A stretch of 64,000 bases of DNA from assembly GCA_009928785.1 (NCBI GenBank), contig SABY01000008.1:1-64000 (forward strand). Reading direction: 5' to 3'. This stretch comes from Clostridia bacterium. GTDB taxonomy: Bacteria; Bacteroidota; Bacteroidia; Bacteroidales; 4484-276. The notes beneath the pieces were generated by a model. That model searched no databases, was not told the origin of the DNA, and worked only from the letters and a program-made list of their open reading frames with translations. The translations under genes and the position numbers were made by a program. Of this stretch, positions 4,048 through 47,124 are shown piece by piece. Position 1 is the first letter of the stretch. Every line of letters begins with the position of its first letter.

Positions 4048-5559
4048 TTAATAATAAACTACCTCCCAGGCATCTTCACGCTGGCTGGCAGCTTTATCCC
4101 ACTGGGGTACTACTTGCTCCAGGAATTGCTTCTTGTCGGAGCGCATTTTCTCCATGGGCAACCCCACATACTGCTGTGCTTTTGTTTTGGTTTCGATGTC
4201 GGGATAGGGCACCGGATAGGGAGCGCCGATACCAGTGAGCAGTGCGGCCAGCTCTATGCGTGCCTGCTGGGCTTCCTGCATACCGGAACTAATGACGCGC
4301 AAAATTTCGAGTGAGTTGTGAAAGGCGGCGCCATGTGAGGCTGCGGCATAATCCCAACGAAATTGGGCGTGCCGGATCAGTTTCTGTATGGGATCGATCT
4401 GCTGTTGTGTGGCGCCATGTTCCAAAGCATGACCCGTTTCGACATGTGCGCGCACCAGCATCTTCTCCAGCTCGTCGCGTTGCGAAATCACTTTATCCAT
4501 TTTATCATAAACAAATCCTACAAGCTCTTCAGCATTCTCGCGATGGCACACCTGGCATGAGTTGGCGATGTTGTTGAGCGGGCTTTGCATGTGGTGGTCG
4601 GTATATTTCTGGCCGCCTTTCGACATGTAAGGCATGTGACAGTCGGCGCAGGTTACGCCGCGTTTGGCGTGCGTGCCCGTTATCCAGGTTTCGTAGCCGG
4701 GATGCTGTGCTTTCAGCATGGGTGTTTTGCTGATCTTGTGTGTCCAGTCGCTAAAATTGATTTCGTCATAATAGGCGATCATCTCCTCCACCTGCATGCC
4801 TTTATCCCATGGAAAGGTGAGATAGGGAATACCCTCTTTGCCAGGCAGGTCTTTATTAAAATAATATTCGACATGACACTGGGCGCACACCAGCGAACGC
4901 ATCTCCTGGTGGGTGGCCTGGGTGATGTCTCTGCCCTGGCGCTCGAAAGCTTCGATGAGGGCAGAACGCGAAATACGCAAGTCCATCGTAACATTGTCGT
5001 GGCAGTCGGCACAGCCAATAGGGTTCACGATTTCTTCGCCCCAGCGCGACCACTTGCCGGAGTAAAACTCGGCAATGCCCACCTTATTCATCAGCCTGGG
5101 TACATCGGGGCTTTTGCACGTCCAGCAGGTGGCCGGCATAGGCTCCGGCTCGTCGATTACGGGAGCGCCCACGCGCAGCGTATTGCGCATATCGGTGATG
5201 GCATAGTAATGACCGCGTCCCTGTGAATAATCTTTCGAAAAACCGTACCCAGCCCACAGCACCACCATTCGTGGATCTACCTCGAGCATATCAATCATCG
5301 CGTTGCCATTGTATTTACTTCGAAAATTGGTGTCGCGGGTTTGCATGTAGGAGGTGTACTCTGCCGGGAAGTTTTCACCCCATACTTCGTTGCGCGGCTC
5401 CCACTGGGTAAGCTGCACACGCGGCTTGTAAATATATTCGGTTTCCACCCGCCGCTCGGCAATGGTAGAGGCAAGCATGCCCAATACAAATACCACAATT
5501 ACAGTGATAAGAAAGATTGTCCAGTTGATCCAGGGACTGCGTTTTTTTTGAGTTTCCAT
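4048..5559 (-). CDS. nrfA: Cytochrome c nitrite reductase (ammonia-forming), pentaheme NrfA
   Basis: 503 aa with CWTCK active-site heme motif plus CADCH, CAQCH, CADCH, CQVCH. Confidence 0.95.
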   Translation of the reverse strand: METQKKRSPWINWTIFLITVIVVFVLGMLASTIAERRVETEYIYKPRVQLTQWEPRNEVWGENFPAEYTSYMQTRDTNFRSKYNGNAMIDMLEVDPRMVVLWAGYGFSKDYSQGRGHYYAITDMRNTLRVGAPVIDEPEPMPATCWTCKSPDVPRLMNKVGIAEFYSGKWSRWGEEIVNPIGCADCHDNVTMDLRISRSALIEAFERQGRDITQATHQEMRSLVCAQCHVEYYFNKDLPGKEGIPYLTFPWDKGMQVEEMIAYYDEINFSDWTHKISKTPMLKAQHPGYETWITGTHAKRGVTCADCHMPYMSKGGQKYTDHHMQSPLNNIANSCQVCHRENAEELVGFVYDKMDKVISQRDELEKMLVRAHVETGHALEHGATQQQIDPIQKLIRHAQFRWDYAAASHGAAFHNSLEILRVISSGMQEAQQARIELAALLTGIGAPYPVPYPDIETKTKAQQYVGLPMEKMRSDKKQFLEQVVPQWDKAASQREDAWEVVYY

Positions 5560-5602
5560 ATCCGTTAAGTTATTTGTTGTATGATGATTTCAAAAATGTG
5601 AT

Positions 5603-6193
5603 TTATTCTTCGTCTTTTTGCATGAGATTTTTCAACCAGGGAGGTACAACGCTGCCCAGCCGTGGCACGCGGGCGTAGGTAGAGGTACTCAGGCTACTCA
5701 CGCGGCCATGCGGCACCTCACGATGGCAGTCCCAGCAGAGCTGTCCCTGATCATGTTGCGCCATCTGAAGCGAAACCTGTATGGTGTGCACGTTTTCGTT
5801 TACATGTCCGTGACAACGTTTGCAGTTTTCCTGCACTACCGCGGCGCCGGCATCTTTTATCTGAATTACCTGGGGTTCATTGCGCAATGTGAAAATGGTA
5901 GCATGACGCGCGCCGTCCATAGCTTTAAAGGTGTAGCTGGCTATCGGATTGGTGTGCGGCACGTGGCAATCGTTGCAGGTAGCATATTCACGGTGCGCCG
6001 AATGAAACCAACTGGCGTACTGTGGATTCATTACATGGCAGTTGATGCAGGTTTCGGGCCGGTCAGAGAGATACGACACTGCATTGGAAATCCTGAAGGT
6101 GTAGATTCCCAACCCTACGATGGCGCCCAAAACAATGGCGGCAGGCAATCGCCAGGTGGGCGGAGGAATGAGGAAGCGAAACATGGAGGCCAT
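5603..6193 (-). CDS. nrfH: NrfH, NapC/NirT-type tetraheme quinol dehydrogenase
   Basis: N-terminal TM helix; CINCH, CNDCH, CKRCH, CWDCH motifs; adjacent to nrfA. Confidence 0.94.
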   Translation of the reverse strand: MASMFRFLIPPPTWRLPAAIVLGAIVGLGIYTFRISNAVSYLSDRPETCINCHVMNPQYASWFHSAHREYATCNDCHVPHTNPIASYTFKAMDGARHATIFTLRNEPQVIQIKDAGAAVVQENCKRCHGHVNENVHTIQVSLQMAQHDQGQLCWDCHREVPHGRVSSLSTSTYARVPRLGSVVPPWLKNLMQKDEE

Positions 6194-8342: not shown

Positions 8343-10589
8343 ATGATTAAAGCAATCAGGTACGCTTTGTTGGTAGTTTTTTGCCTGAGTCTCTGGATGG
8401 AACAGCCGGCGGCTTTTGGACAGGAAACACTCAATGACGTAAAACAGAAACGCGGACTTAACGATGCAGACGTATTGGCTGCTGTTAAAACCTTCATGCC
8501 ACGGGGCGGACGCGATGAGTATTTCGGTTTTATCGGTACCGGCAACTCCGGCACCATGATCGTTTACGGTTTGCCTTCGATGCGCATTTACAAGTATGTA
8601 GGTGTTTTTACACCCGAACCCTGGCAAGGCTACGCTTTTGACGACGAAAGCTCGCTGATGCTCAAGAAAAATTCGCCTGACAACCGCATCTATGACTACG
8701 GCGATATGCGGTATCCTGCCCTATCGGAAACCGATGGCAAATACGATGGCAAATATTTGTTTTATAGTGATGGTGCCAACTCGCGGGTAGCGATGCTGGG
8801 ACTGGACGATTTTGAAACCAAGCAAGTGTTGGCCAACCTGCTCTACAAAAATGCCTTTGCCGGAGTAGCCGTTACCGAAAATACGGAGTACATCATTCAA
8901 ACCAGCGAATACCCGGCACCATGGGATTTGAAAACTACCGATCTGGCCAACGCCAAGGCTGGCATCACTTTTTGGGCATTTCACGAGCCGGAAGCTGTCA
9001 CCGAAACCGGGCATCATGTGGGTAGAATGATCAAAGATGAAAGCTTTACCGTGGAGCTGCCCGCCTATACGCTGGGCTATTTTGATGCCGGACGCCTCAA
9101 GAGCAATGGCCTGGTAGTGGGACTTGCCAGCATGGACGGCAAGCACTACGTGTATGTTGTGGATTTTGAAAAGATCAAATCGATCCCTACCGAAAAAATA
9201 AACGAAACCAATGTGGTAAGCCTGCAAAAAGCGCTGAATGCTAATGCTGTAGCTTTGGTTGCTTTACCCGCCAAAGCCTCGAAAGTGAAAGTTACCCCCG
9301 ACGGTGATTATTTCATTGCAGCCGGCGACAGGGCAATTGTTTTCGATTTTGCTAAGGTGAGGGCCGCTTTAAACGACAAGACTTTTGCCGGCAACGCTCC
9401 CGGAGATATTCCAATTTTGGATAGCAAAGATATCGAGCATGGCGCCATTGATCTGGGCAATAAGGTGATCGACTTCACTTTCGACTATCGCGACAATGTT
9501 GCTTACGCATCCGCTTTTGAGGATAAAAAGATCATCAGGTGGAATTACAACACGCTGAAAAAAGAAGGCGAACTGCAGCTCACTTTTAAGCCAGGCCACG
9601 TGATGATACCGCAGGGATTGTCGGCAGAGCCGCACTCCAACTACCTGGTGGTAACCAATAAAGAGGGACTCAACGAGAATTTCCCCAATACGGGGCCTGT
9701 GCGTCCCAACTTCCAACACCTTATTGATATAAGCGACGACAACATGGTTGACCTGTACTCGATGAGCGTGCCACAAGCCAATATTTATGGTTCGGTGGCT
9801 GTATTGCGTACCAGCATCAAGCCAATCATCCGCTACGAAACCGGAACCAACACCCGTACCGGCGAGATTTCGGAATTCAAAACCGTGGCCGGTCGCGAAA
9901 AAATTGAACGCGAAGGAAACCGTGTACATATCTTCGGAACCATGATCCGCTCGCACATTGTGCCGGAAATTGTAGAAGTGAACGAAGGCGATATTGTAAC
10001 CTTCCACCTTACCAACCTGGAGCGTGCCGAAGACGAAACGCATGGATTCACGGTGGACACTTACGGTGTACACGGAAGTTTTGAGCCTGGCAAAACGGCC
10101 TCGCTCACCTTTACGGCCAGCCGCCCCGGAGCATTCCCCTATTATTGCACCGAGTTTTGCTCGGCATTGCACCTGGAAATGGAAGGCATCCTGATGGTGA
10201 AACCCAAAAACTACTCCGGCCCCGAAGCTGCTGAAGACGTAGCGCTGACAGAAGCCCAACAAGCTGAATACAAACAGAGATTTGAAGATAAAATCGTGGT
10301 CATCAACCAAACGCAGGATGTTATCAACGGCGTGGTAACCTGGCTCAAAGAGAACAACTATCAGAACTATGATTATGTGAAAGCCCTTGTGGATGATGCT
10401 GTGGATCAACTTGGACAGGCCGCCAAAGCCAAAGAAAATTATGAAAAGTATGTGGCTGAAAAGAAATATCGTGATGCTTTCCTTTGGGCTGAACAATACT
10501 TCCAATATCAGGTAAAAGCTGCCGACGTAGGCTTACGTGCTAAAGAACTCCTGCGCATCCAACTGGAAGATGAAGAGGGTAAGAAATAA
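8343..10589 (+). CDS. NosZ-like protein A: CuA-retaining, CuZ-ligand-depleted nitrous-oxide reductase paralog with helical C-terminal tail
   Basis: NosZ-like beta-propeller plus cupredoxin domain; CuA motif YYCTEFCSALHLEMEG with THGF His; DTHH replaced by DMRY, NHGG by NAFAG, SPHG by ASKV, LGPLH by LGNKV, EPHY by ANIY; Sec signal peptide. Confidence 0.9.
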   Translation: MIKAIRYALLVVFCLSLWMEQPAAFGQETLNDVKQKRGLNDADVLAAVKTFMPRGGRDEYFGFIGTGNSGTMIVYGLPSMRIYKYVGVFTPEPWQGYAFDDESSLMLKKNSPDNRIYDYGDMRYPALSETDGKYDGKYLFYSDGANSRVAMLGLDDFETKQVLANLLYKNAFAGVAVTENTEYIIQTSEYPAPWDLKTTDLANAKAGITFWAFHEPEAVTETGHHVGRMIKDESFTVELPAYTLGYFDAGRLKSNGLVVGLASMDGKHYVYVVDFEKIKSIPTEKINETNVVSLQKALNANAVALVALPAKASKVKVTPDGDYFIAAGDRAIVFDFAKVRAALNDKTFAGNAPGDIPILDSKDIEHGAIDLGNKVIDFTFDYRDNVAYASAFEDKKIIRWNYNTLKKEGELQLTFKPGHVMIPQGLSAEPHSNYLVVTNKEGLNENFPNTGPVRPNFQHLIDISDDNMVDLYSMSVPQANIYGSVAVLRTSIKPIIRYETGTNTRTGEISEFKTVAGREKIEREGNRVHIFGTMIRSHIVPEIVEVNEGDIVTFHLTNLERAEDETHGFTVDTYGVHGSFEPGKTASLTFTASRPGAFPYYCTEFCSALHLEMEGILMVKPKNYSGPEAAEDVALTEAQQAEYKQRFEDKIVVINQTQDVINGVVTWLKENNYQNYDYVKALVDDAVDQLGQAAKAKENYEKYVAEKKYRDAFLWAEQYFQYQVKAADVGLRAKELLRIQLEDEEGKK

Positions 10590-10629
10590 TTTTTAAAATC
10601 ACATTTTGTTAACTTTAAAAATAACGACA

Positions 10630-13014
10630 ATGAAATATATCAGCAGAAAGATAAACACCCTGTGGCTCATCAGCCTGGTGCTAACATACGTACTGGTGCT
10701 GGCCAGTTGCGATGGCAAACAAAAAAGTGGCACCTCCGATTTGGGCGCTCCCCGTGGCAAAGAATCACTCAAAGATGTGATTGACCGGCGTGGCCTGAAT
10801 GCCGAGGACTTGCTGGCCGCTGCCAAAACCTACACCCCCGACAACGTGAAAGACGAATACGTTGCGCTGAACTCCGGCGGACAGGAAGGCAACATGCCCA
10901 TGTACACCGTTCCTTCGATGCGTATGATAAAATATGTACCCACATGTGCCAACCAACCAGCCAACGGATACGGCTACAGCAAAGAAACCAAAGCCATGAT
11001 GGCCAAAGGTTTTATAGAAGGACAGGTGATAAAATGGGGCGACACACACCATCCGGGATTTTCGGAAACCGATGGGCTGTACGATGGCAAATGGGCTACC
11101 GTAAACGATAAAGCCAACCCACGCATCTTTATCATCAGCTTGACAGATTGGGAGCTAAAGGATGTGATCCAAAATCCATTGTTCAGAAGTAACCACGGTG
11201 GTAACTTCTATACGCCCAACTCCGAATACATCATGGAAGCCTCGCAATATCCGGCCCCGCTCGACCGAAAGTATTATCCGCTCTCACAAACCAACTTCGA
11301 AAAATACTGGCGCGGCGGATTGACTTATTGGAAATTCGACAACGAAACCGGACAGGTAGATCACGACAAGAGCTTCACCTTTGAATTTCCACCCTACACG
11401 CAGGACTTATCCGATGCCGGCAAGGAAGACTCTTATGGCTGGGGCTTTACCAACTCATTCTGTACCGAAATGTACATTGGCGGGATGGAAAGTGGCCGTC
11501 CGCCATTTGAAGCTGGATGCTCCTCGCGCGATGTGGACTATATGCACGTAACCAACTGGAAAAAAGCTGAGCAGGTAGTGGCTGCCGGAAAATATACTGT
11601 CATCAACGGCCACAAAGTGATACCTATTGATATAGCTGTAAAAGAAGGTTTGTTTTATCTGATTCCCGAACCTAAATCACCCCACGGCGTGGACGTTGAC
11701 CCATCAGGAAAATACATTGTGGTGGCTGGTAAACTCGACTCACATGCCTGGGTATATTCTTTCGAGAAAATTATGAAAGCTATCGATGAGAAAAATTTCG
11801 AAGGCTTCGATAACTATGGCATCCCGATTATTTCGCTCGAAGATGCACTCCATGGCAGCGTTGAGGTAGGCTTAGGCCCGTTGCACAATCAGTTCGACAA
11901 TGAAAAAGGCATTATCTACACCTCTATCTATGTTGACTCGCGCATTACCAAATGGGATTATATCAATCTTAAAGTGATCGATTATGTTCCTTCGCATTAC
12001 AACATCGGCCACCTGGTGTCGTCGCACGGCGATACCCGCGAACCAGTTGGTGACTATCTGATAGCACTCAACAAACTATCTATCGACCGCTTCAACCCGG
12101 TAGGACCGCTTCACCCACAAAATCATCAGCTTATCGATATCAGTGGTGATAAGATGAAAATTATCTACGACCTCCCGTTACCGATGGGCGAACCACACTA
12201 CACCGCCCTGATGGATGTTGATTCTTACAAGTCCATTTCGACCTACGACATTGGAACCGACATTACCACCAACAGCAAATCGAAATATTATGTGGCTGTG
12301 GGTGGCGAAAAGGTTACTACCGAAAGTGATGGCGTGCATGTGTATGGTACCATCAACGATGGCAAGGTAACTCCGCAAAACATAACTGTGAATCAGGGTC
12401 AAAACGTACAGATACACCTGACCAATCATGGCCAGAACAAGCTCGATCATTATGTTTACGAAATTTCCTCCTACGATCAGATGTACCGCTGGCGTCCGGG
12501 CGAAACGGCTACGCTGGAATTTACTGCCGAAAAAGCCGGTATGTATCCGCTGCTGCTCGACTGCGTGCACAATCCCGACGATAGGGAACTGCAGGGCTAC
12601 CTTACAGTTGAATATAGCGATAAAGCCGAGAACGACCGGCTGCTTGCTTACTCCAAGCGGGTACAAAAGGACTCCGAGATGCAGGCCTTCAAACCTTCGG
12701 CCATCGAAATGAAAAACATGCTCACCGGCGAAATGGAATACCTAAACCATGGCTGCAACGCATGCCACCGCTTTGGCGAAGAGTACAACGGCCCCGACTT
12801 GTTCATGGTTTCCAAACGCCGCAGCGACGAATGGCTCAAATCGTGGATCATGGATCCTGAAAATCACCTGAAGGAGATAGATATAGAGGCGATGCGCCAA
12901 AAATACAAACTGGCCATGCCCAACCAAAACGTGTCAGAAGAAAGTGCCGAAAAAATCATAACCTACATGAAACTGCGTTCTGATGAGGTACTCAAAGAAA
13001 TGAGTAATAAATAA
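10630..13014 (+). CDS. nosZ: NosZ-like protein B: CuZ-ligand-retaining, CuA-lacking nitrous-oxide reductase paralog with C-terminal cytochrome c domain (lipoprotein)
   Basis: DTHHPGFSETDG, SNHGG, SPHGVDVDPSGKYIVVAGK, LGPLHNQFD, HYNIGHL, GEPHY motifs retained; CuA region is YPLLLDCVHNPDDRELQG; CNACH heme motif; lipobox VLASC; ATG at 10630. Confidence 0.92.
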   Translation: MKYISRKINTLWLISLVLTYVLVLASCDGKQKSGTSDLGAPRGKESLKDVIDRRGLNAEDLLAAAKTYTPDNVKDEYVALNSGGQEGNMPMYTVPSMRMIKYVPTCANQPANGYGYSKETKAMMAKGFIEGQVIKWGDTHHPGFSETDGLYDGKWATVNDKANPRIFIISLTDWELKDVIQNPLFRSNHGGNFYTPNSEYIMEASQYPAPLDRKYYPLSQTNFEKYWRGGLTYWKFDNETGQVDHDKSFTFEFPPYTQDLSDAGKEDSYGWGFTNSFCTEMYIGGMESGRPPFEAGCSSRDVDYMHVTNWKKAEQVVAAGKYTVINGHKVIPIDIAVKEGLFYLIPEPKSPHGVDVDPSGKYIVVAGKLDSHAWVYSFEKIMKAIDEKNFEGFDNYGIPIISLEDALHGSVEVGLGPLHNQFDNEKGIIYTSIYVDSRITKWDYINLKVIDYVPSHYNIGHLVSSHGDTREPVGDYLIALNKLSIDRFNPVGPLHPQNHQLIDISGDKMKIIYDLPLPMGEPHYTALMDVDSYKSISTYDIGTDITTNSKSKYYVAVGGEKVTTESDGVHVYGTINDGKVTPQNITVNQGQNVQIHLTNHGQNKLDHYVYEISSYDQMYRWRPGETATLEFTAEKAGMYPLLLDCVHNPDDRELQGYLTVEYSDKAENDRLLAYSKRVQKDSEMQAFKPSAIEMKNMLTGEMEYLNHGCNACHRFGEEYNGPDLFMVSKRRSDEWLKSWIMDPENHLKEIDIEAMRQKYKLAMPNQNVSEESAEKIITYMKLRSDEVLKEMSNK

Positions 13015-13046: not shown

Positions 13047-13454
13047 ATGAAAAGACTTGTCCTGATTATGATGGTGTCGGCATTTGCGCTGACGCTCGTT
13101 AACTGCGGTGGCAGCGGCGGAAACGAAACAAAAAGCACTACCACCACCGAACAAACAGAAGTGAAAGCTACCATGACTGCCGACTTGCAAAATGGTAAAG
13201 TGGTTTACGAAAAAGTGTGCATTGCCTGCCACATGACCGGTGTGGCCGGAGCAGCCAAGGTAACCGATCACGAACGCTGGGCAGAAGTAGCACCCAAAGG
13301 TATGGAAGCATTGCATCAAAGTGTAATCAATGGTATTCCTGACGGAAAATATGGTGTGATGGCTCCTCGTGGCTCCTGCACCGACTGCTCCGATAAAGAC
13401 CTGTACGACGCCGTTGCTTACATTTTGAAGGAAGCCAACGTAGAGGCAAAATAA
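13047..13454 (+). CDS. Monoheme c-type cytochrome lipoprotein (cytochrome c5-like), nos operon
   Basis: LTLVNC lipobox, CIACH heme motif, downstream Met, CTDC Cys pair. Confidence 0.85.
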   Translation: MKRLVLIMMVSAFALTLVNCGGSGGNETKSTTTTEQTEVKATMTADLQNGKVVYEKVCIACHMTGVAGAAKVTDHERWAEVAPKGMEALHQSVINGIPDGKYGVMAPRGSCTDCSDKDLYDAVAYILKEANVEAK

Positions 13455-13463
13455 TTTTTGATA

Positions 13464-14237
13464 ATGAAGAGATATCAAATTTTTTCAGCCCTGGCGCTGG
13501 TTTTGCTCATCCTGTCGTATTTTATGCCCATCTGGTGGGTGGCACTGCAAAGCCACCAATATCCGGAGTCGATGTATCCCAATGGGATTCGTATTGAGTT
13601 TAAATACAATGGTGTGTACAACGGCTGCGAGGGCACGAGCGAGCGCTCCGAGTTGGCGTCCAATCAGGCGGGTGCCGATTGTTTGGTAGAGATGAATGCC
13701 ATCAACCACTTCATCGGGATGTATGGAATAGTGCAGGGACGCAATGTTGCTGCTGATGTGGATTATCCACCGCACCAAACTTTCGATACCAAAAAAGATG
13801 CTGATGGTAATGAGATCGTCGATGCGCAAACCGGACAGCCGGTAAGAGTTGACGTAACCCCCGGCTTCTTAAACTTCCTCGACGGGCTGATGTATTATTC
13901 GCCCTGGCTCTTTGTATTTCTGGGGTTGCTCATCGTGGGCTTTATTGTTACCAAACGAAAAGTTAATGCAGCCTTGGGAATCATCCCGGCATTGTTGCCA
14001 GTTTACTTTCTCGTGATGTACATCATCGGATTGTATTGGTACGGCCATCATCTGGGGCTTCATGGCGGCGGCGCTTTTGAAGGTATCAAAGAGTTTATGC
14101 CCACAGTATTTGGCGAAGGCAAGGTAGCACAGTTTACTACCATGTCGTATCCCTACCTCGGATTTTTTGTAACACTGCTGGTTTTTGTATTCATGATTCT
14201 GGCCATCATACAAAAACGCAAAGCAATAAAATCGTAA
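13464..14237 (+). CDS. Multi-TM membrane protein of the nos cluster (NosB-like position)
   Basis: N-terminal TM, periplasmic loop, three further TM segments; between cytochrome c and nosD; start ATG at 13464. Confidence 0.6.
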   Translation: MKRYQIFSALALVLLILSYFMPIWWVALQSHQYPESMYPNGIRIEFKYNGVYNGCEGTSERSELASNQAGADCLVEMNAINHFIGMYGIVQGRNVAADVDYPPHQTFDTKKDADGNEIVDAQTGQPVRVDVTPGFLNFLDGLMYYSPWLFVFLGLLIVGFIVTKRKVNAALGIIPALLPVYFLVMYIIGLYWYGHHLGLHGGGAFEGIKEFMPTVFGEGKVAQFTTMSYPYLGFFVTLLVFVFMILAIIQKRKAIKS

Positions 14238-14259: not shown

Positions 14260-15609
14260 ATGATTAATTATTTAAACCATAAAAGCTTTAGCGCGCGACC
14301 CACACAAGCGGGTTGTGCGCTTTTGCTTTTTATGCTTTTTGTTTTAATAATTATCAATACAACAACAGCGCAAGGCGAGATTTCCGGAATGCGGCAATCC
14401 ATCACGCCCGTTGCCGACACATTGCACCCGATTGCTTTACAGCCCATCATCGACCGGGCGCAGGCCGGCGACACGATAAGGCTGGGCGCCCATTTGTATC
14501 ACGGCCCGGTGCGCATCAGCAAGAGCCGGCTTTTTATCGACGGACAATGCCAAAGCGCCGTTACCGGACTTGATCAGGAGAGTGTTTTTTATCTCGACGC
14601 CGACAGCATCACGCTACAAAATATGATAATTACCAACTCCGGCGGCTCGCATGACAAGATTGATTGTGGTGTGAAAATTATAGGCAGCTACAATACCATC
14701 GAAAACTGCCGCATACAGGAGTGCTTATTTGGAATAGACATTTTTCAATCTGATTACAACAGGGTTTCTCATTGTGAAATTTCGTCGCTAACACGACGCG
14801 CCAAAGCGCTAAAAGGCGATGCCATCCGCTTGTGGTGGGCCAAGCGCAATGTGGTTCAAAACAACTACTGGCACCACGTGCGCGACATGGTGGTGTGGTA
14901 CAGCGAAGAAAACCTCTTTGAAGAAAACCTGGGAATCGGCAACCGCTACAGCATCCATTTTATGTATGCCCACAACAACCGCATCCGGGCCAACCGGTTT
15001 TACGAAAATTCTGTGGGCGTGTTCCTGATGTACAGCGAGCGCACCATTATGACCGAAAACCTGATCATGAAATCCACCGGCGAAAGCGGCATGTGCCTCG
15101 GCATGAAAGAAACTTCTTCTAACCAAATCCTCAACAACCATTTTATCTACTCTGCCGAAGGGATTCACTTTGACGTCTCTCCCTTTGTGCCCGAAAAAAT
15201 TAACACCATCGAAAACAACGAAATTGCTTTTTGTGTGGCCGGCATGTTTTTTCATACCAACCAGGAAGGCAATCTTATCAAGAACAACTATTTTCATAAT
15301 AACCTCTCGCAGGTGGTGGCACAGGGCAACACCGCCAACGGCAACGAGTGGGAGCACAACTATTTCGACGACTATCAGGGGTTCGATCGCGATGGCGACA
15401 ACGTGGGCGACACGCCTTACGAATTATATACTTACGTTGATCATCTCTGGGATTTTAACCAAAACATGAAATTTTTCTACGCCTCACCGGTGCTGGTGGT
15501 GCTCGACTTTTTGGAACGCCTCGCACCCTTTTCTAAACCCAAATTCATACTACGCGACAAAACGCCCATGTATCGCAAAGAGATTACCGAAACAACATTT
15601 ATCAATTAA
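14260..15609 (+). CDS. nosD: NosD, periplasmic right-handed beta-helix copper-maturation protein
   Basis: NosD/CASH-type repeats (GSYNTIENCRIQECLFGIDIFQSDYNRVSHCEI..., LYTYVDHLWDFNQNMKFFYASPVLVVLDFLERLAPFSKP). Confidence 0.93.
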   Translation: MINYLNHKSFSARPTQAGCALLLFMLFVLIIINTTTAQGEISGMRQSITPVADTLHPIALQPIIDRAQAGDTIRLGAHLYHGPVRISKSRLFIDGQCQSAVTGLDQESVFYLDADSITLQNMIITNSGGSHDKIDCGVKIIGSYNTIENCRIQECLFGIDIFQSDYNRVSHCEISSLTRRAKALKGDAIRLWWAKRNVVQNNYWHHVRDMVVWYSEENLFEENLGIGNRYSIHFMYAHNNRIRANRFYENSVGVFLMYSERTIMTENLIMKSTGESGMCLGMKETSSNQILNNHFIYSAEGIHFDVSPFVPEKINTIENNEIAFCVAGMFFHTNQEGNLIKNNYFHNNLSQVVAQGNTANGNEWEHNYFDDYQGFDRDGDNVGDTPYELYTYVDHLWDFNQNMKFFYASPVLVVLDFLERLAPFSKPKFILRDKTPMYRKEITETTFIN

Positions 15610-16001: not shown

Positions 16002-16135
16002 TGTTTTAATGAAAACACTGCTGCACAATCCGTTTGAAGCCAACACACCAAAGGCTTGTGCCGCAGTTTCGGCAACTTTATATCCGTTGCCATTATTTGG
16101 TAATAAATATCAAAACATCAAAACCTATCCAAATC

Positions 16136-18211
16136 ATGCATACGATCCATAAAATATTGGCGATACTGCTGCTGCAAATAATGGCGCTTTCGGTTGCAGC
16201 GCAGGTGGTGGATACCACCATCACCATCGAAGCCATTGTAATAGAAGCGCAAAGCAGCAGCACCATTCAAAAAACTATCATCAACAGCAAGTCCATCCCG
16301 ATAGAAGACATCCACGACGTAGCCGAGATATTTGTAAACGAGCCGGGGTTTGGCATCATCAAGCGCGGCAACTACGCCATGGAACCGGTGATGCGGGGAT
16401 ACAAGTACGAGCAATTGAACGTGATTTTTAATGGCGGTGCCACCAGCAGCAATGCCTGCCCCAACCGGATGGACCCCGCCATTTCGCAGGTTTCGCCCGA
16501 AGACATCGAAAAAGTAGAAATCATAAGAGGTCCTTATAGCATGCGCTACGGGCAAACATTCGGTGGAATCATCAATCTGGTTACCAAACGTCCACGTCCG
16601 AATCCCGATGCCAAAGCCGTATCGGGCAGCGTGCTGGGTGGCTGGGAATCCAATGGCGGAAGTGCCTGGGGAGCTGTAAATGTATTGATGCAACACAAAA
16701 AAGTGGATTTCCTTTTATCTGCCGACTACAAAGATTTTGGCAACTACAGCAGCGGCTCCGGCCAGGAAATAGCCTCCTCGTTCAGCCGCTTTGGCTACGA
16801 TGCCAAATTGGGTTACAACCCTGCCGCGAACCACCGCATACAACTCAACTTCCGACAGGGATTTGCTAAAGACATCATGCATGCGGCCTTGCCCATGGAC
16901 GCCGACAAAGACAACAGCACCCTGCTTGCTATCGATTATGTGGCCAACAATGTTTCGCAGCGGATTTCGTCGTTGCGGATGAAACTTTTTGGCTCCTGGG
17001 TCGATCATTCCATGTCGAACGACAACCGTCCCAACTACGCCGCCGTTCATGCCGTAACTCCGGTCACCGCCTTTGTTGCCGGCGGCAATGCAGAAGTTAG
17101 CATCCATACATCACCCAAAAACCTGATTTATCTGGGTACCGATTTCAAAACCACCAGCAAAGACGGCACGCGCACTCGGGAGGTTTACATCAACGTGTGC
17201 AACGGGCAAACGTACGACCCTCCCAAAGTATTCGAAGACCTGGTGTGGCAAAATTCGATTAAAAATACCATTGGTTTCTTTGCCGAAAATCACAACCAGC
17301 TCCATCGAAACCTACTCTGGATAACCGGAGCACGTATCGACTTTACCAACTACGACGCCCGCGATGTAGCGCCTGATTTCAGCGAGGCCTACAATAACGC
17401 TATAAAGCCTGGCACCATGACCAACTTTTCGGCAAGCACTTCGCTCACCTGGCAAATCGAACATGGGCTGGAAATGCTGTGGGCGTTGGGTCGTGGCGTG
17501 CGTACCCCGGAGCTAAATGAGATGTATATCAATCATTTTTCTATTGGCCAGGATGCTTACGAATATCTGGGTAATCCCAACCTGAAACCGGAAGTTAATT
17601 ACCAGACTGACTTGCGTGTCGAAAAACGGTGGTCGTCGCTGTCGGCGTATGGCAATGTTTATTATTCATTGTTGCAGAATTACATCTCCGCTTATCTCGA
17701 CACCACGCTCACACGTAAGTTTTTACCCTGCAAACCGCCCCAACATGCCAAGCGATACGCCAACGTTCCCGACGCTTTTATGACAGGTTTCGAGGCCGGG
17801 ATGGAATGGCAGTTTGGACGCAATTTTAAATACACACTCACTGCCGGCTACACCTATGCACAAAATACTTCATGGGATGAGCCACTGCCCGAAATTCCGC
17901 CATTGAGCATTAGCAGCAGCATCGGGTATTATGCTACATCGCTGCAGGCAGTGCTGAATGCCCGCATTGCCAGCGACCAGGAGCGGGTAGCGCCTTCGTT
18001 CGATGAATCTACTTCCACGGGTTTTGCTGTTTTTGATTTAAAAGTAAAATACATGCCCCTGGATTTCCTTGAAGTGTATGGAGCCATTACCAATATTTTG
18101 GACAAAAATTATGTAGAGCATCTTAGCCGCTCTTACAACAATATGTACGACGAGTTTCCATACTATGAGCCGGGTCGGAGCTTTAATCTGGGTGTAAAAT
18201 TTATGTTTTAA
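16136..18211 (+). CDS. TonB-dependent outer-membrane receptor, NosA/OprC-like (copper)
   Basis: Plug and barrel motifs (VEIIRGPYSMRYGQTFGGIINLVTKRP); CPNRM (CxxxM) in the plug as in OprC-type Cu receptors; start ATG at 16136. Confidence 0.85.
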   Translation: MHTIHKILAILLLQIMALSVAAQVVDTTITIEAIVIEAQSSSTIQKTIINSKSIPIEDIHDVAEIFVNEPGFGIIKRGNYAMEPVMRGYKYEQLNVIFNGGATSSNACPNRMDPAISQVSPEDIEKVEIIRGPYSMRYGQTFGGIINLVTKRPRPNPDAKAVSGSVLGGWESNGGSAWGAVNVLMQHKKVDFLLSADYKDFGNYSSGSGQEIASSFSRFGYDAKLGYNPAANHRIQLNFRQGFAKDIMHAALPMDADKDNSTLLAIDYVANNVSQRISSLRMKLFGSWVDHSMSNDNRPNYAAVHAVTPVTAFVAGGNAEVSIHTSPKNLIYLGTDFKTTSKDGTRTREVYINVCNGQTYDPPKVFEDLVWQNSIKNTIGFFAENHNQLHRNLLWITGARIDFTNYDARDVAPDFSEAYNNAIKPGTMTNFSASTSLTWQIEHGLEMLWALGRGVRTPELNEMYINHFSIGQDAYEYLGNPNLKPEVNYQTDLRVEKRWSSLSAYGNVYYSLLQNYISAYLDTTLTRKFLPCKPPQHAKRYANVPDAFMTGFEAGMEWQFGRNFKYTLTAGYTYAQNTSWDEPLPEIPPLSISSSIGYYATSLQAVLNARIASDQERVAPSFDESTSTGFAVFDLKVKYMPLDFLEVYGAITNILDKNYVEHLSRSYNNMYDEFPYYEPGRSFNLGVKFMF

Positions 18212-18293
18212 AAACTATTATGCCCGTTTCTTGCAATCCATTACACCGGTAAGATTGCTATTACAAAACGTTAATTTTGAAAATAAAAAAACG

Positions 18294-19271
18294 ATGAATC
18301 AGAAAAGTACAGAGATTAGCCGGCGCAACTTTTTGAAGAGCGGAGCCGTAGTGGCAGGTTCCCTGGTTGCCATTGGCGCCGGCGTTGGTATTGTAAAAAC
18401 AGTGACGGGCAACGATGTGCGCAACAAAAATTTTCTTCGACCCCCCGGGGCGGCGAAGGAAAAAGATTTCGTGTATGGCTGCATCAAGTGCGGCCTGTGC
18501 GTACAGATTTGCCCGGTGCATGCCATCCGGCTGGCAGGAATCAACAAAGGGCTTTCCTACTCCACACCATATATAGACCCACGCAGCCAGCCCTGCGATT
18601 TTTCATGTGACTCGCTGCAGTGTGTCGAAACATGCCCCACCGGTGTACTCGACTTCAGGCAATTTAAACATGCCGGTACCGAAGCCATTATCGCTTACGA
18701 AGAAGAACGTAAAGCTGAACGGCAGCAACAAAACGACAGCATACACGGCGTAGGGATGCACGACGGCAAAGGACCCCATGGCGCCGACAAAGGGTACAAT
18801 CCTTTCCCGATACAAATAGCTGCGATGAAAGAAGCGGTGCGGATGGGAACAGCAAAGTTGATTCCCGAAACGTGCCTCGCGGTGCAGGGAAAAGGCTTTA
18901 CGGGTACGCCACGCGACCAGGATTTCAAAGGCGTTTATCGCTCGCCGGCACCCACCACAACTGAAATCACCGAGCAGGAAGGCGGCGACAGGCCTCGCCG
19001 TCATCAGCAACGCGGCAACGCATCCGGCGAACAGATTTATGAAAAACAAGCCTCGCCGCTGCGCAACAAAACCTTCGCGCGCGACATCTGCAACCTGTGC
19101 GTCACCGAATGCCCCATTGGTGAGAAAGCCATCGTGATGAGCGCCGAAACCATGGCTGACGGCACGCTTCATTATAGTCCACAGGTACTGGATGGCTGCA
19201 CCGGATGTGGTGTTTGCGTAATGGTATGCCCGACGGCTGAAGCAAGTATTATTGTTTTACCCAATAATTGA
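18294..19271 (+). CDS. nosG: NosG/NapG-like periplasmic 4Fe-4S ferredoxin-type protein, Tat signal
   Basis: SRRNFLKSG Tat motif; CIKCGLCVQICP, CDSLQCVETCP, CNLCVTECPIG, CTGCGVCVMVCP clusters. Confidence 0.85.
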   Translation: MNQKSTEISRRNFLKSGAVVAGSLVAIGAGVGIVKTVTGNDVRNKNFLRPPGAAKEKDFVYGCIKCGLCVQICPVHAIRLAGINKGLSYSTPYIDPRSQPCDFSCDSLQCVETCPTGVLDFRQFKHAGTEAIIAYEEERKAERQQQNDSIHGVGMHDGKGPHGADKGYNPFPIQIAAMKEAVRMGTAKLIPETCLAVQGKGFTGTPRDQDFKGVYRSPAPTTTEITEQEGGDRPRRHQQRGNASGEQIYEKQASPLRNKTFARDICNLCVTECPIGEKAIVMSAETMADGTLHYSPQVLDGCTGCGVCVMVCPTAEASIIVLPNN

Positions 19272-19276
19272 TTGTG

Positions 19277-20215
19277 ATGATATTTAAAAAATCAAAAGAT
19301 AAAGAACCGTTGCCGGCAAAGCCGGTGGGTCAGTTACCACACGCGCAGGAAGGGCTTAGCTACAACGAATGGCGCAACAAACGCCGCTACAACCACAAAT
19401 GGCGCAACATACGCTGGGCGGTGGTGATAGGGCTTTCGCTGCTTTTTATGCTTTCGTTTATGCTCGACCTCTCCATTTTGGAAGGTTCCCTAAGCGGATC
19501 GCGTTTGGTGGGATTTTATCTCATCGACCCATTCAACACCTTGCAGTTGTTGTCGATCTCGTCGCGTACAGGATTTATCGCCCTGCTCACCATGAACTTC
19601 TGGATCGGCCTGATGATTATCGTAGGATTTTATGCCATCATGGGCGGACGCACCTACTGCTCGTGGATTTGTCCGTATCATTTTATAGCCGAATGGGTGG
19701 ATAAACTACGCGGCTACATGGAAAAGAAATACAAGATTAAAAACCATACTTTTAACCGTTCTTTGCGCTATGTATTTTGGGTAGGATTTATCCTGCTGGC
19801 CTTTGCCACCTCCAGTCTGGTATTTGAAGTAATCAATCCTGTGGGCATTATTTCCAGAGCTTTGATCTATGGCCCCGGACTGATTTTGCTGTGGATAGTG
19901 GCGCTGGTGCTTTTCGAATTGCTTTACAGCAAACGCTTTTGGTGCAGCTACGTTTGTCCTATCGGAACTACAATGGCCATGGTAGGCAAAGCCTCGCCGA
20001 TGGTTGTGCAGTTCGATTATGAAAAATGTGGCTATTGCGGCGAATGCCAGAAAGTGTGCGAAGTGCCCCACGTGTTGTGGTTTACCAAACGCGGCAAAGC
20101 CACCCAAAAAATACATACTGCCGGCGCCGATTGCACGCGCTGCGGCTATTGCGTGGACAGATGCCCCGGCAAAGCACTTACTTATTCATTTAAAGGCATT
20201 GATAAATTAACCTGA
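19277..20215 (+). CDS. nosH: NosH/NapH-like membrane polyferredoxin quinol dehydrogenase
   Basis: TM segments; CSWICPYH, CSYVCPIG, CGYCGECQKVC, CTRCGYCVDRCP. Confidence 0.88.
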   Translation: MIFKKSKDKEPLPAKPVGQLPHAQEGLSYNEWRNKRRYNHKWRNIRWAVVIGLSLLFMLSFMLDLSILEGSLSGSRLVGFYLIDPFNTLQLLSISSRTGFIALLTMNFWIGLMIIVGFYAIMGGRTYCSWICPYHFIAEWVDKLRGYMEKKYKIKNHTFNRSLRYVFWVGFILLAFATSSLVFEVINPVGIISRALIYGPGLILLWIVALVLFELLYSKRFWCSYVCPIGTTMAMVGKASPMVVQFDYEKCGYCGECQKVCEVPHVLWFTKRGKATQKIHTAGADCTRCGYCVDRCPGKALTYSFKGIDKLT

Positions 20216-20886
20216 TGAACACTACCGACAATATATTAATTGAGGCGCAACATCTCACCAAGATGTTTAAAAATGCAACGGTGATCGACGATTTATCGAT
20301 TGCCTTTGGTGGCGGCGAGCGCATAAGCCTGAGCGGTCCCAACGGTGCGGGCAAAACCACACTGATGCGCTGTATCCTGGGGCAATATCTCTATCAGGGC
20401 AAGCTCTCGGTGCTGGGGCAAAATCCGCGAAAGCATCATCTTGAGATCATGAGAAATGTAGGATTTGTGCCACAGCTTGCACCGCCGCTCAAAATGACTA
20501 TTCAGGAGCTGATCGGTTTTTTTGTGCAGCTCACCGACCGCCACAGTGAGGATTTTACGCGGATTGCCGAAAAGATGGGATTACAAATACAACCCAATCT
20601 GCGCAAGCCTTTTTATAAACTTTCCGGTGGGATGAAGCAAAAACTTCTGGTAGCTTTTGCCCTGGGGCGCGACCCCAAAATCCTGCTCATGGACGAGCCC
20701 GCCGCCAACCTGGACCCGGCCGCCCGAATGATTTTTTTCGATTATTTACAAAATTATAATCCACAGGCACTGATGATCCTGTGCAGCCATCGGATGAATG
20801 AAATTGCAGGAATCATCAACCGCAACATCGAAATGGACTTAGGAAAAGTGGTGCTGGATCAGAAAATCAATCAAACTTTAAACTAA
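20215..20886 (+). CDS. nosF: NosF ABC transporter ATPase
   Basis: GPNGAGKTTLMRC Walker A, LSGGMKQKL signature, ILLMDEPAANLDP Walker B. Confidence 0.92.
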   Translation: MNTTDNILIEAQHLTKMFKNATVIDDLSIAFGGGERISLSGPNGAGKTTLMRCILGQYLYQGKLSVLGQNPRKHHLEIMRNVGFVPQLAPPLKMTIQELIGFFVQLTDRHSEDFTRIAEKMGLQIQPNLRKPFYKLSGGMKQKLLVAFALGRDPKILLMDEPAANLDPAARMIFFDYLQNYNPQALMILCSHRMNEIAGIINRNIEMDLGKVVLDQKINQTLN

Positions 20887-20897
20887 ATTTTAAAATA

Positions 20898-21389
20898 ATG
20901 AAAAAGATATTTTACGCAATAATTATTACAGTAATGCTTGCCGGCTGCGTTGGTGAGGCCGACTACAGCGCCCGCGAAATCAACTGGGACCGCGACATTT
21001 GCATCAACTGCCTGATGGGACTCGCCGAAAAGGAATATTCCGCGCAAGCTATCAACGAGCGCTCCGAAGTGCTCTGGTTCGACGATATTGGTTGCCTTAC
21101 CGAATACATGAAACACGACGACTGGAAGCGTTTTGCCGGCGAGGGCGAAGTAAAAATATGGGTGGGCCACTGCGAAACCGGCGAGTGGATTGATGCAGAA
21201 CAAGCCTGGTACCGCTACGGCGACCGCACCCCGATGGGCTATGGCTATGGCGCGCTGAGTGTACCCAACGACTCCACCTACACTTACGATGAAACCATGG
21301 AGCGTATCCGCCAGGGATACACAAAACGGGAGCAGTTTTTGAAAGACAAAAAAATGCTCGACAAACATCACGACGGCCACCAACACTAA
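20898..21389 (+). CDS. nosL: NosL copper-chaperone lipoprotein
   Basis: LAGC lipobox; CINCLM (CxxCxM) Cu motif; WFDDIGCLTEY. Confidence 0.92.
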   Translation: MKKIFYAIIITVMLAGCVGEADYSAREINWDRDICINCLMGLAEKEYSAQAINERSEVLWFDDIGCLTEYMKHDDWKRFAGEGEVKIWVGHCETGEWIDAEQAWYRYGDRTPMGYGYGALSVPNDSTYTYDETMERIRQGYTKREQFLKDKKMLDKHHDGHQH

Positions 21390-21399
21390 AAGAAGGCAG

Positions 21400-22233
21400 A
21401 TGAAAAATCATGACCTGAAATATGTTTTAAAGCTGGAGCTGATGCAAAGCCTGCGGTCCACGTGGTTTTGGTCATATTCCATTTTATTTGGCGGCTTCGT
21501 GGCCATCATGTTTGCGCTGGGCATCACCGAGTCGCAGGTTATCGGCTTTCTGGGGCTGGGGCGGCTGATGATCACCTTTATGCAGGTGTGCATCGTGGTG
21601 CTGCCCATTTATATCCTCATCACCACCGTGCGCTCCATCGTTGGCGACCGCGAAACGCATGTGATGGAATACTTCCTTTCGCTACCCATCTCGTTTTCGT
21701 CGTATCTGCTTGGCAAATTCATAAGCCGTTACATCGAAATATTTACGCCGGTTTTTCTGGCGCTCACCGGAGCCGTTTTGTGGGGAATGTTTCAGGGCAT
21801 CGACGTACCCTGGGATTTGTTTGCACTTTACGTGGTTTTGCTTGCCGTGCTCACCTTTTGTTTTTTGGGAATTGGTATGATGATTTCCGTAAAAGCCAAC
21901 ACACAAACCCACGCCATCGGCTCTGCTTTCATCCTGTGGCTGCTACTGGTGGCGCTGCTCGACATCATCCTGATGGGCGCTATGCTCAAGCTCCGCATCA
22001 GCCCGGAGCTGGTAATCGGTTTTGGAATGATCAACCCATTGCAGGTTTTCCGTACCGGTGTGCTGGTACTTTTCGATCCCAGCCTTACGGTAATGGGCGC
22101 CGCCTCCTACTATATCCTCGACACCGTGGGGCGTGGCATTTTTATTACGTTTTCGATAATTTATCCGCTCTTGCTGGGATTCCTGTTTTTGTGGCTCAGC
22201 CTGCGCAGTTTCAAAAATAATGATGTGGTGTGA
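21400..22233 (+). CDS. nosY: NosY ABC permease
   Basis: Six TM-like segments, position after nosF/nosL, RSIVGDRETHVMEYFLSLPIS. Confidence 0.9.
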   Translation: MKNHDLKYVLKLELMQSLRSTWFWSYSILFGGFVAIMFALGITESQVIGFLGLGRLMITFMQVCIVVLPIYILITTVRSIVGDRETHVMEYFLSLPISFSSYLLGKFISRYIEIFTPVFLALTGAVLWGMFQGIDVPWDLFALYVVLLAVLTFCFLGIGMMISVKANTQTHAIGSAFILWLLLVALLDIILMGAMLKLRISPELVIGFGMINPLQVFRTGVLVLFDPSLTVMGAASYYILDTVGRGIFITFSIIYPLLLGFLFLWLSLRSFKNNDVV

Positions 22234-23186
22234 TGATTATGAAAATCTTTTTTATTAAAAAACAAAGAAACCTCCGCCTTCTCCCCGCATTGGCAATGCT
22301 GGTAGGGCTTGTCGGATGTGCCAATATTAATACGCCTGTGGTTGAGAAACTATTTCCGCATCCGCCCGACACGCAGTCGCTCACTTTGGTAGATTATATG
22401 GCTCCGATGGATGTGGCTACAATTATTTCGGGAGCCTCTCTTCTGCCCGACGGAACGCCCCGCCACAAAGGCATACGAACGGTGCCACAAAACAATGATG
22501 ATTTCCGTGGCCACCAGCTCGACGACATCTATTGGGTGGGCATTAGCGCGCAAAACGCCGATTTCAGAGGAACCTTCTTTCGTTATGCCAATTGCTCCAA
22601 CAGCAACTTCTCTAATTCAGATTTTAAAGTCGCCGACATCCGCTGGACCAACTTTAGCAACTCCATTCTCGAAAATTGCGACTTTAAGCAGGCGCGTATG
22701 TTTCATCTTTTTGTGGACGACGCCCGCATGAGCAATTCGTCGATGCGGGGCGCCAATATGTTTGGAATGGAAGGCCACGATGCTAATTTAAGAAATTGCG
22801 ATCTCTCCTTTACCCTACTCAAAGACAGCGAATTTATCAATTGTAAATTTTCAGGCTCGATAGCCGTGAAAGCCAATTTTGTGCGCTCGGTATTGCTCGA
22901 TGCCACCGCCGACTCGTGCGATTTCAGCTACAGCGACTTTACCGGCGCCAGCCTCGAAGGGTCTTCGTTTGTAAATTCACGATTTATCCACACCAACTTT
23001 CAGGGAGCGCATTTGCAGCAATGCGATTTTACCGGCGCCGACCTGCAAGCGTGCAGCTTCTTTGGTGCAGAATTTGAAAACACCATTCTGCGCGGCGCCA
23101 TCAACATCCCCGAAGATATACAAAACCTGATGGTGGATGGGATCGTTACCGGCTATTACATTTCTGACAACGACAAGGAATTATAA
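22233..23186 (+). CDS. Pentapeptide-repeat lipoprotein, translationally coupled to nosY
   Basis: TGATG overlap with nosY stop; lipobox GLVGC; A(D/N)xxx-type repeats (ADLQACSFFGAEFENTILRGA). Confidence 0.8.
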   Translation: MIMKIFFIKKQRNLRLLPALAMLVGLVGCANINTPVVEKLFPHPPDTQSLTLVDYMAPMDVATIISGASLLPDGTPRHKGIRTVPQNNDDFRGHQLDDIYWVGISAQNADFRGTFFRYANCSNSNFSNSDFKVADIRWTNFSNSILENCDFKQARMFHLFVDDARMSNSSMRGANMFGMEGHDANLRNCDLSFTLLKDSEFINCKFSGSIAVKANFVRSVLLDATADSCDFSYSDFTGASLEGSSFVNSRFIHTNFQGAHLQQCDFTGADLQACSFFGAEFENTILRGAINIPEDIQNLMVDGIVTGYYISDNDKEL

Positions 23187-43732: not shown

Positions 43733-43816
43733 TTAATTCCAATCCCTGATTGCTCTTGCTTGTTCAAAAGCACAACGCCATCGAAATTCTTCAGTAATGC
43801 AAATTGGCTCGCTCAT
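43733..43816 (-). pseudogene. Short ORF coupled (ATGA) to the methyltransferase stop, apparently frameshifted remnant
   Basis: MSEPICITEEFRWRCAFEQARAIRDWN* followed in another frame by FDGVVLLNKQEQSGIGINGSLNQQDTARREKFLKAGSRKSYLRNWLNHFFDPTG*. Confidence 0.35.
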
Positions 43817-46800: not shown

Positions 46801-47124
46801 GGCCATTGCCTGAAAACTGCCAAGCCCAGGGTCGTTATCAACCAACTGGCTGATGTATTCCTTCTTCAACTTTTTGAGCACGGCAAAGCGAACACGGATA
46901 TTCTGGTTGTCGGCACTGAGTCGATACAGTTGTGGCTGCACCGTTTGCGGTGCGGTTGCCAAAAAATCCTTGAGTTTTTGTGTTTGCGGTGAAATCAGTT
47001 GGGGTCTTCCGGGATTAGGCTCTATCTTCATCCATTGGAGGAGGGCAGCCGCAAAGTCAAAAACGTTTTCGCGTTTTTTTTCCTCAAGAGAGGCAAGAAT
47101 AGTATTGATGTCGGTAATGGTCAT
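43813..47124 (-). CDS. Eco57I/PglX-like adenine-specific DNA methyltransferase (type IIG-like)
   Basis: ILDPACGSGAFPMGVL motif I, FDVVIGNPPYVD motif IV, C-terminal TaqI-like recognition region; 1103 aa. Confidence 0.88.
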   Translation of the reverse strand: MTITDINTILASLEEKKRENVFDFAAALLQWMKIEPNPGRPQLISPQTQKLKDFLATAPQTVQPQLYRLSADNQNIRVRFAVLKKLKKEYISQLVDNDPGLGSFQAMAKGLNQSTTGTAFIPTQPYFIHFATTPDYDKLVLIFNQGEQKRIVSFHNRLTNTQYHKILEKWQNIGVKPKPEIADLLWKSLDIKEVNKEFYRQIKERFDALSGIVKTQHASTSLSMGAAATDNQVKQFTVRLIGRYIFCWFLKEKGIIPYSLISKETIAKTENYYQTVLLKLFFQTLNTKVQDRDPLKHNKLFEKIPYLNGGLFDESEEDKLFSNLDLDAWLLPFVGILESYDFTVDESSSNYQQIAIDPEMLGRIFENLLASQNEETEKLANQRKAFGAFYTPREIVDYMVNESLKAHLENRLLPHEPETENTVNEPLTAYEGTLFADLEPNQIQEQTTKYSPDTEQKRNKIKERINKLFATDCSDNPFDKDETAQVRQALGEVTILDPACGSGAFPMGVLLRLMELHQIVGHGYKNNYDLKSEILSKNIYGVDIMPMAIEIARLRAWLSLVLEAEYKPADRKNNFGIAALPNLDFKFVCANSLIDNGYDDFLTKIKHNQTLYLLDGEIKKLETIRDTYFDPKGDKQKKEQLQREFLQTKDHIKTNFASLRKTWHLDDFLNKVDDWNPFDDSHPSSFFSPAWMFGIRDGFDVVIGNPPYVDIKSLPPEIVREFFKTFKTTRKRINLYAVFVEKGYSLLSRNGNIIFIIPNSILVNESYLLLRKLLIQNLRQVIKLPDNVFEAIVETIILQAEKGNNEKFIKTRYFDNGENTNFCQLEYTNFAREDWEKDKDVRFNIFLNDNTESIVNKIESTGKILKQIADFSLGITPYDKYQGHSKEDIQNRVFHSETKISEAYVPLISGKNIHKYFIQNTPIDEFLKYGEWLGAPRDIKFFKEPRVIVRQIVAGKPDFKIHAGYTEDELYFTQIGFGVMSKKEDTSETKFILALLNSELIKFYHANRFLDREKEIFQKILIANTKQFPIPKFFSGKPQNQIEKLVDEILTKKKANQDTTSLEKEIDVLVYHLYELTYDEVKIIDKDFWLSEQEYSKTMMKSK
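46453..46476. repeat. REP-like palindromic element inserted in frame in the methyltransferase gene
   Basis: CATGC-TGAGCGAAGTAGAT-GCATG encoding low-complexity HASTSLSM. Confidence 0.5.

Follow-up and report, generated by a model that had tools for sequence, protein, structure and literature searches.

A nitrous oxide reductase that appears divided between two neighbouring genes, probably an obligate heteromer with a single composite copper site

The nitrous oxide reductase NosZ is the best-known biological sink for N2O. It is a head-to-tail homodimer in which the CuA centre of one subunit feeds the CuZ centre of the other and, to our knowledge, all solved NosZ structures are single-gene homodimers. 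In Marinobacter NosZ, the propeller of one subunit touches the cupredoxin domain of its partner; blade IV has a loop that binds Ca2+ (ligands E260 and D274) and clamps the partner's cupredoxin, and CuA and CuZ are connected through F617 in the CuA domain and E488 and K450 in the partner propeller (PMC11573801). Several NosZ can occur in one genome: Bacillus azotoformans has three, each with all ligands (PMC3475470), and in Danish wastewater MAGs that carry two nosZ genes, more than 45 genes separate the two (PMC11409646), a situation different from the adjacent pair reported here. Our search of the open-access literature turned up no account of a NosZ that is split or heteromeric; because most subscription papers and all preprints were outside its scope, such a NosZ may have been described before.

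In many uncultured Bacteroidota and related bacteria, NosZ appears to be divided between two neighbouring genes. We describe such a pair, genes A and B, in a stretch of 64,000 nucleotides (the window), together with its orthologues and its operon.

Two adjacent NosZ paralogues with complementary copper ligands

Genes A and B lie on the plus strand of the window with the following features.

8343..10589 (+): gene A, CuA-only NosZ paralogue of 748 aa; ORF intact, assigned by profile and ligand alignment
9120..9131 (+): place where the blade-IV Ca2+ clamp loop is missing in A; the loop has about 20 residues in B and in unsplit relatives
10041..10043 (+): His567 of A, a CuA ligand (1QNI H526), present in 42/42 orthologues
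10146..10181 (+): CuA loop of A, CTEFCSALHLEM, residues 602-613, with C602, C606, H610 and M613
within the CuA loop CTEFCSALHLEM (+): F605 of A, equivalent by alignment to the Marinobacter conduit phenylalanine F617
10206..10586 (+): C-terminal helical extension of A, about 125 aa, common to the unsplit 'long' NosZ relatives
about 10630..13014 (+): gene B, CuZ-only NosZ paralogue of 794 aa from the likely ATG; ORF intact, assigned by profile and ligands
11047..12198 (+): CuZ site of B, with H140, H141, H189, H352, H419, H461 and H523, in 39/39 orthologues
11458..11538 (+): blade-IV loop of B with Ca2+ ligands E280 and D303 (Marinobacter E260 and D274), from alignment and PMC11573801
12535..12606 (+): degenerate CuA loop of B, YPLLLDCVHNPDDRELQGYLTV region; CuA ligands kept in 0 orthologues
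12754..12768 (+): haem c motif CNACH of B in the C-terminal cytochrome c domain (Pfam Cytochrom_C, 1.2e-4)

The earlier note on this DNA had read the two genes as adjacent, co-directional NosZ paralogues, and this is what we find: both ORFs are intact and both match TIGR04246 end to end, A with 451.5 bits (span 1-578/578), below the cut-off of 625, and B with 685.4 bits, above it. The best PDB sequence matches of both proteins are solved NosZ structures. When aligned with 1QNI (Marinobacter NosZ), the CuZ positions H79, H80, H128, H270, H325, H376 and H437 are R, Y, F, S, D, H and Y in the window's A, a loss of six of the seven histidines, and the CuA side-chain positions H526, C561, C565, H569 and M572 are H, C, C, H and M. 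The same alignment gives histidine at all seven CuZ positions of B and Y, L, H, D and L at its CuA positions (0/5 ligands). The claims that A holds CuA with only the PGH histidine left of its CuZ motifs, and that B holds every CuZ histidine (7/7) over a degenerate CuA, are therefore right for the window's proteins.

The two proteins also differ at their ends. Gene A encodes a putative Sec-type signal peptide without lipobox, a dead propeller, a live CuA cupredoxin domain and the C-terminal helical extension; gene B encodes a putative lipoprotein signal (LASC), a live CuZ propeller, a dead cupredoxin domain and a C-terminal cytochrome c. The Sec-like signal of A and the lipoprotein signal of B were identified by reading of the sequence, and neither contains a twin-arginine motif. 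A lipobox scan found lipobox-like motifs in 33/39 B orthologues and 1/42 A orthologues; B is usually a predicted lipoprotein, unlike A. The extension of A is predicted to be helical (pLDDT about 64-87 in a single-chain AlphaFold2 model) and matched no Pfam family. Its length is roughly 121-125 residues in A and the unsplit relatives, and the alignments run to residues 737-748. Neither the extension of A nor the c-type cytochrome domain of B had been mentioned in the earlier note.

Distribution, ancestry and constraint of the pair

Orthologues were sought in 394 genomes of the window's own order and in a scan of GTDB species, two samples that partly share organisms. Nine further genomes among the 394 contain A, and the GTDB scan yielded at least 46 A loci with A identities of 59-72%. 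Among the matches listed, identity below these loci falls sharply to 41-43%, where single-gene NosZ begins, and B directly follows A on the same strand at 46/46 loci (cases at contig ends show the start of B). The phylum labels are Bacteroidota (39), 'Chlorobiota' (5) and Ignavibacteriota (2), and all carriers found are uncultured or metagenome-assembled genomes.

Ligands were counted in 42 full-length A, 39 full-length B and 66 unsplit NosZ. Each of the five CuA ligands is present in 42/42 A and 0/39 B, and each of the seven CuZ histidines in 39/39 B; a complete CuZ site occurs in 0/42 A. Two of the replacements in A are invariant, H325 to D and H437 to Y (42/42 each), and the only CuZ histidines that survive anywhere in A are H376 (7/42), the PGH histidine of the window's A, which is thus not conserved, and H270 (1/42). 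Both copper centres are present in all 66 unsplit NosZ, including 34/34 of the 'long' relatives. Neither A nor B contains the seven CuZ histidines and the five CuA ligands in one polypeptide; only the pair together does. A CXXCH motif is found in 39/39 B, 0/42 A and 0/34 unsplit relatives. Since the split pattern recurs without exception in at least 46 loci, it is not a product of chance.

We also looked for metal ligands that could restore the lost centres, which the earlier note had named as grounds for refutation, and found none conserved in the CuZ region of A or the CuA region of B. A replacement copper site in B was rejected: orthologues do not conserve the cysteine that lies near the former CuA loop, and they differ in the residues at C561, C565 and H569, variability that leaves no conserved replacement metal site at the old CuA positions. 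A residual CuZ site in A was also rejected, as H376 alone persists to any extent.

Twenty-five of the 394 genomes of the order have NosZ, 10 with the pair and 15 with a canonical NosZ, and none of the 394 combines the pair with a canonical NosZ or has A or B alone. Profiles for NosZ of clades I, II and III, run against the ten pair genomes, matched only A, B and one second B-type gene. Two further outcomes that would have counted against the earlier note, a canonical NosZ elsewhere in the genome and absence of the pair from relatives, thus did not materialise: no canonical NosZ was detected in the window's genome (94% complete) or in the nine other pair genomes, and with at least 46 loci the pair is not a one-off. 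An assembly chimera was rejected on the same count, the loci being from separate assemblies.

Several loci depart from the simple arrangement. Lutibacter SZUA-1414 has two pairs in one genome (L118 and L120). The second B-type gene, in L079 (G650:C177), has its upstream partner, if any, beyond the contig end. The downstream cytochrome c is seemingly fused to B, giving two CXXCH motifs, in L103, L115, L117-L119, L125, L126, L128, L144 and L145.

A tree of 70 rows resolved A and B each as one clade (100% SH-aLRT each). Both nest among the unsplit 'long' NosZ, a clade with members from Pseudomonadota, Myxococcota and other groups, and lie apart from ordinary Bacteroidota NosZ. The A and B subtrees match in most groupings, as expected under co-inheritance. 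A topology that makes A and B sister clades cannot be rejected (p-AU 0.248), yet it is not the best tree, and the exact placement of both remains uncertain because of long branches. This phylogeny traces the pair to an unsplit, clade II-like NosZ with both centres.

The dead domains have moved much further from unsplit NosZ than the live ones but remain similar among themselves. Identity within the group and to unsplit NosZ is 91% and 70% for the A cupredoxin and 76% and 59% for the B propeller, compared with 65% and 38% for the dead A propeller and 66.5% and 31.5% for the dead B cupredoxin. Median dN/dS over 11 close pairs is 0.06 for the A propeller, 0.02 for the A cupredoxin, 0.07 for the B propeller and 0.11 for the B cupredoxin; these low values in all domains indicate that the dead domains are maintained by purifying selection. 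On these substitution rates, the dead halves look as if they are kept for a structural role and are not decaying. We give almost no credence to the pair being pseudogenes, an assembly artefact or a non-functional remnant in organisms where another NosZ does the chemistry. By the standards of NosZ, A and B each lack an essential centre, as a remnant would, but the same reciprocal pattern in at least 46 loci from separate assemblies, the low dN/dS, the intact nos operon described below and the lack of any other NosZ in the ten genomes all speak against it.

The nos operon around the pair

The genes downstream of B are those of a nos operon.

13047..13454 (+): lipoprotein monohaem cytochrome c, fused to the C-terminus of B in some orthologues
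13458..14237 (+): membrane protein at the NosB position, conserved at 49-70% in split and 35-50% in unsplit loci; named from position
14260..15609 (+): NosD (TIGR04247, 347.9 bits, above cut-off; Pfam NosD)
18231..20215 (+): NosG (NapG-like) and NosH (NapH-like) ferredoxin proteins; NapH above cut-off, and synteny
20215..22233 (+): NosF (ABC ATPase), NosL-like lipoprotein and NosY (ABC-2 permease), CuZ assembly genes; synteny

The NosL match is weak (E 0.003), and that name leans on synteny. In relatives whose NosZ is 41-43% identical to A, the unsplit order is nosZ-nosB-nosD-nosG-nosH-nosF-nosL-nosY; the split order is A-B-(cytochrome c)-nosB-nosD-(TonB receptor)-nosG-nosH-nosF-nosL-nosY. The match between these orders indicates that A and B stand where nosZ would be, in an operon complete for assembly and electron supply.

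In many pair loci the nos operon includes a TonB-dependent receptor (16034-18211, + in the window), for which similarity gave no counterpart in the unsplit operons that were checked; it may be a copper uptake receptor. Directly after nosY is a pentapeptide-repeat-like lipoprotein (22230-23186, +) that is conserved in several pair operons. An NrfA/NrfH-type ammonifying nitrite reductase (4048-6193, −) adjoins the nos operon in the opposite orientation, which suggests that the host is an ammonifier-type N2O reducer.

Elsewhere in the window, we identified a Druantia-like anti-phage system (32036-43182, −). It comprises a DruM C5 methyltransferase, a DruK nuclease-family protein, DruE of 2038 aa and a DruF-DruL4 fusion in a single ORF (DruF at residues 1-576, DruL4 at 618-925). 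A Type IIG restriction-methylase-like protein adjoins an HKD+SNF2 helicase with DrmD-like scores (43813-50624, −), and these genes are possibly part of the Druantia-like defence island.

Inter-subunit elements, the proposed heterodimer and known reductases

The analysis to this point has demonstrated gene content, ligand partition, adjacency, the lack of another NosZ in the ten genomes, synteny, ancestry and constraint. How the two proteins meet was approached through the residues by which NosZ subunits contact each other. The Ca2+ clamp loop (E260/D274, or E207/D221 in 1QNI numbering) is kept in 39/39 B and deleted in 42/42 A. All 39 B have the conduit glutamate E488 (E435), where all 42 A have N. 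The conduit phenylalanine F617 (Phe564) is retained by every one of the 42 A but has been lost from B, and K450 is kept in both. Judged from these alignments, the pair retains what is required to build a site from the CuA domain of A and the propeller of B, and has lost much that would serve the opposite interface. This partition of inter-subunit elements is the strongest evidence, albeit from sequence alone, for a heterodimer.

We consider it likely that A and B are two subunits of one N2O reductase, paired obligately as a heterodimer in which CuA(A) and CuZ(B) make up a single composite site; the complex and its activity are inferred. This supports the reading of the earlier note, which had inferred a heterodimer with one composite active site and a second, dead interface. 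Each protein lacks one copper site, so neither should work without the other. In the history we propose, an ancestral clade II-like nosZ encoding both centres and a C-terminal helical domain would have stood first in its nos operon and been duplicated there before these loci diverged. The copies would then have specialised reciprocally, A keeping the CuA domain and helical tail and losing CuZ, and B keeping CuZ, losing CuA and carrying a cytochrome c domain in place of the tail. In the resulting A:B dimer, CuA(A) would face CuZ(B) at the working site, and the second interface, the dead A propeller against the dead B cupredoxin, would be structural. Electrons may pass from quinol through NosG/H and the cytochromes c (the downstream one and that of B) to CuA(A) and on to CuZ(B), where N2O would be reduced to N2; NosDFY and NosL would load CuZ into B only.

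A stable heterodimer, its metal content, the electron route and N2O reduction activity are inferred only, as no complex was modelled or purified, and there are no physiological data because all carriers are uncultured MAGs. Single-chain AlphaFold2 models built from 9- and 10-row alignments are poor (mean pLDDT 56 and 53). Foldseek ranks NosZ first for the models of both A and B, at query TM-scores of only 0.22-0.36; models of such low confidence add little beyond the sequence. Mirror-tree partial correlations are 0.26 for the A propeller with the B cupredoxin and 0.56 for the A propeller with the B propeller; they do not single out the pair of dead domains and are no test of the interface. One feature counts against the heterodimer reading: the cytochrome c of B sits on the dead cupredoxin, away from the predicted live CuA unless its linker of about 40 residues spans the distance.

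This same cytochrome leaves some room for another explanation, which we regard as unlikely, in which a B:B homodimer alone is the N2O reductase, the fused cytochrome c replaces CuA by donating directly to CuZ, and A is a separate soluble CuA shuttle or donor that docks only transiently. The confinement of the cytochrome c domain to B (all 39, and none of the 42 A or 34 unsplit relatives) would fit, as would the contrast between a B that is usually a lipoprotein and an A without lipobox. However, A is never absent in the surveyed genomes, and its propeller of 430 residues, needless for a shuttle, is under purifying selection (dN/dS about 0.06). A keeps the conduit phenylalanine in a CuA domain that is 91% identical within the group, and B retains two elements that act on the CuA domain of a partner, the Ca2+ clamp and E435. 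Moreover, some clade II NosZ (Wolinella) have a C-terminal cytochrome c yet keep CuA (PMC8301774). It is still less probable, and very much so, that B is the enzyme and A a NosZ-derived partner without a role in electron transfer, such as a chaperone, regulator or copper store. New invariant residues in the dead propeller (D325, Y437 and R410, in 42/42 A) could point to such a role, but the CuA ligands and F564 are strictly conserved in A, and with CuA lost in B the enzyme would be left without a known electron entry.

Returning to the heterodimer, the pair is probably an obligately heteromeric NosZ with a CuA-only subunit, a CuZ/cytochrome c subunit and one composite site, and would be the first N2O reductase to have a half-of-sites geometry fixed in its genome. 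If this is true, heteromeric NosZ is spread over Bacteroidota, Ignavibacteriota and 'Chlorobiota' and has been missed or miscounted by current nosZ annotation: counts of nosZ by profile, or by primers for the CuA or CuZ region, would double-count or miss the pair organisms, which are so far seen only in metagenomes. With electron entry and catalytic site on separate proteins, a natural two-gene NosZ makes it possible to study the assembly of CuA and of CuZ, the transfer of electrons and the dead interface separately, and it raises the question of whether a dimer with one active site works. It also offers a clear case in which duplication and reciprocal loss turned a homodimer into what looks like an obligate heterodimer.

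Among the NosZ compared, those closest to A and B are of the unsplit 'long' clade II-like type, for example those of Magnetovibrio blakemorei (L171), Rhodobium orientis (L164) and a member of the Zoogloeaceae (L153). They share the operon order of the pair loci and a C-terminal extension of the same length as in A, but have CuA and CuZ in one protein (34/34) and, unlike B, no cytochrome c domain. In Bacteroidota, Sec-dependent clade II NosZ (TIGR04246; proteins of about 650-680 aa) belong to the same family, whose cut-off B passes and A does not, and have the same nos-type setting; the pair, like clade II NosZ, is encoded with nosD, F, Y and L and nosB, G and H. However, these Bacteroidota enzymes are single proteins with both centres, occupy a separate branch of the tree, and never occur together with the pair in the order surveyed. 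The clade III lactonase-type NosZ has only weak profile similarity to A and B (NF052460, 96.8 and 121.6 bits, under the cut-off of 700) and is absent from the ten pair genomes by the profile search; on these scores neither A nor B is a member of clade III L-NosZ. The Wolinella succinogenes cNosZ has a C-terminal c-type haem domain like that of B but keeps CuA, which the cytochrome is proposed to feed (PMC8301774), whereas B is without any CuA ligand and falls outside this type. The clade I NosZ of Marinobacter nauticus and Pseudomonas stutzeri have the composite CuA-CuZ site between two subunits (PMC11573801), and are homodimers with two active sites where the pair is an inferred heterodimer with one. 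As A:A would have no CuZ and B:B no CuA, the pair is not a homodimeric composite-site NosZ with two equivalent sites, its oligomeric state being inferred.
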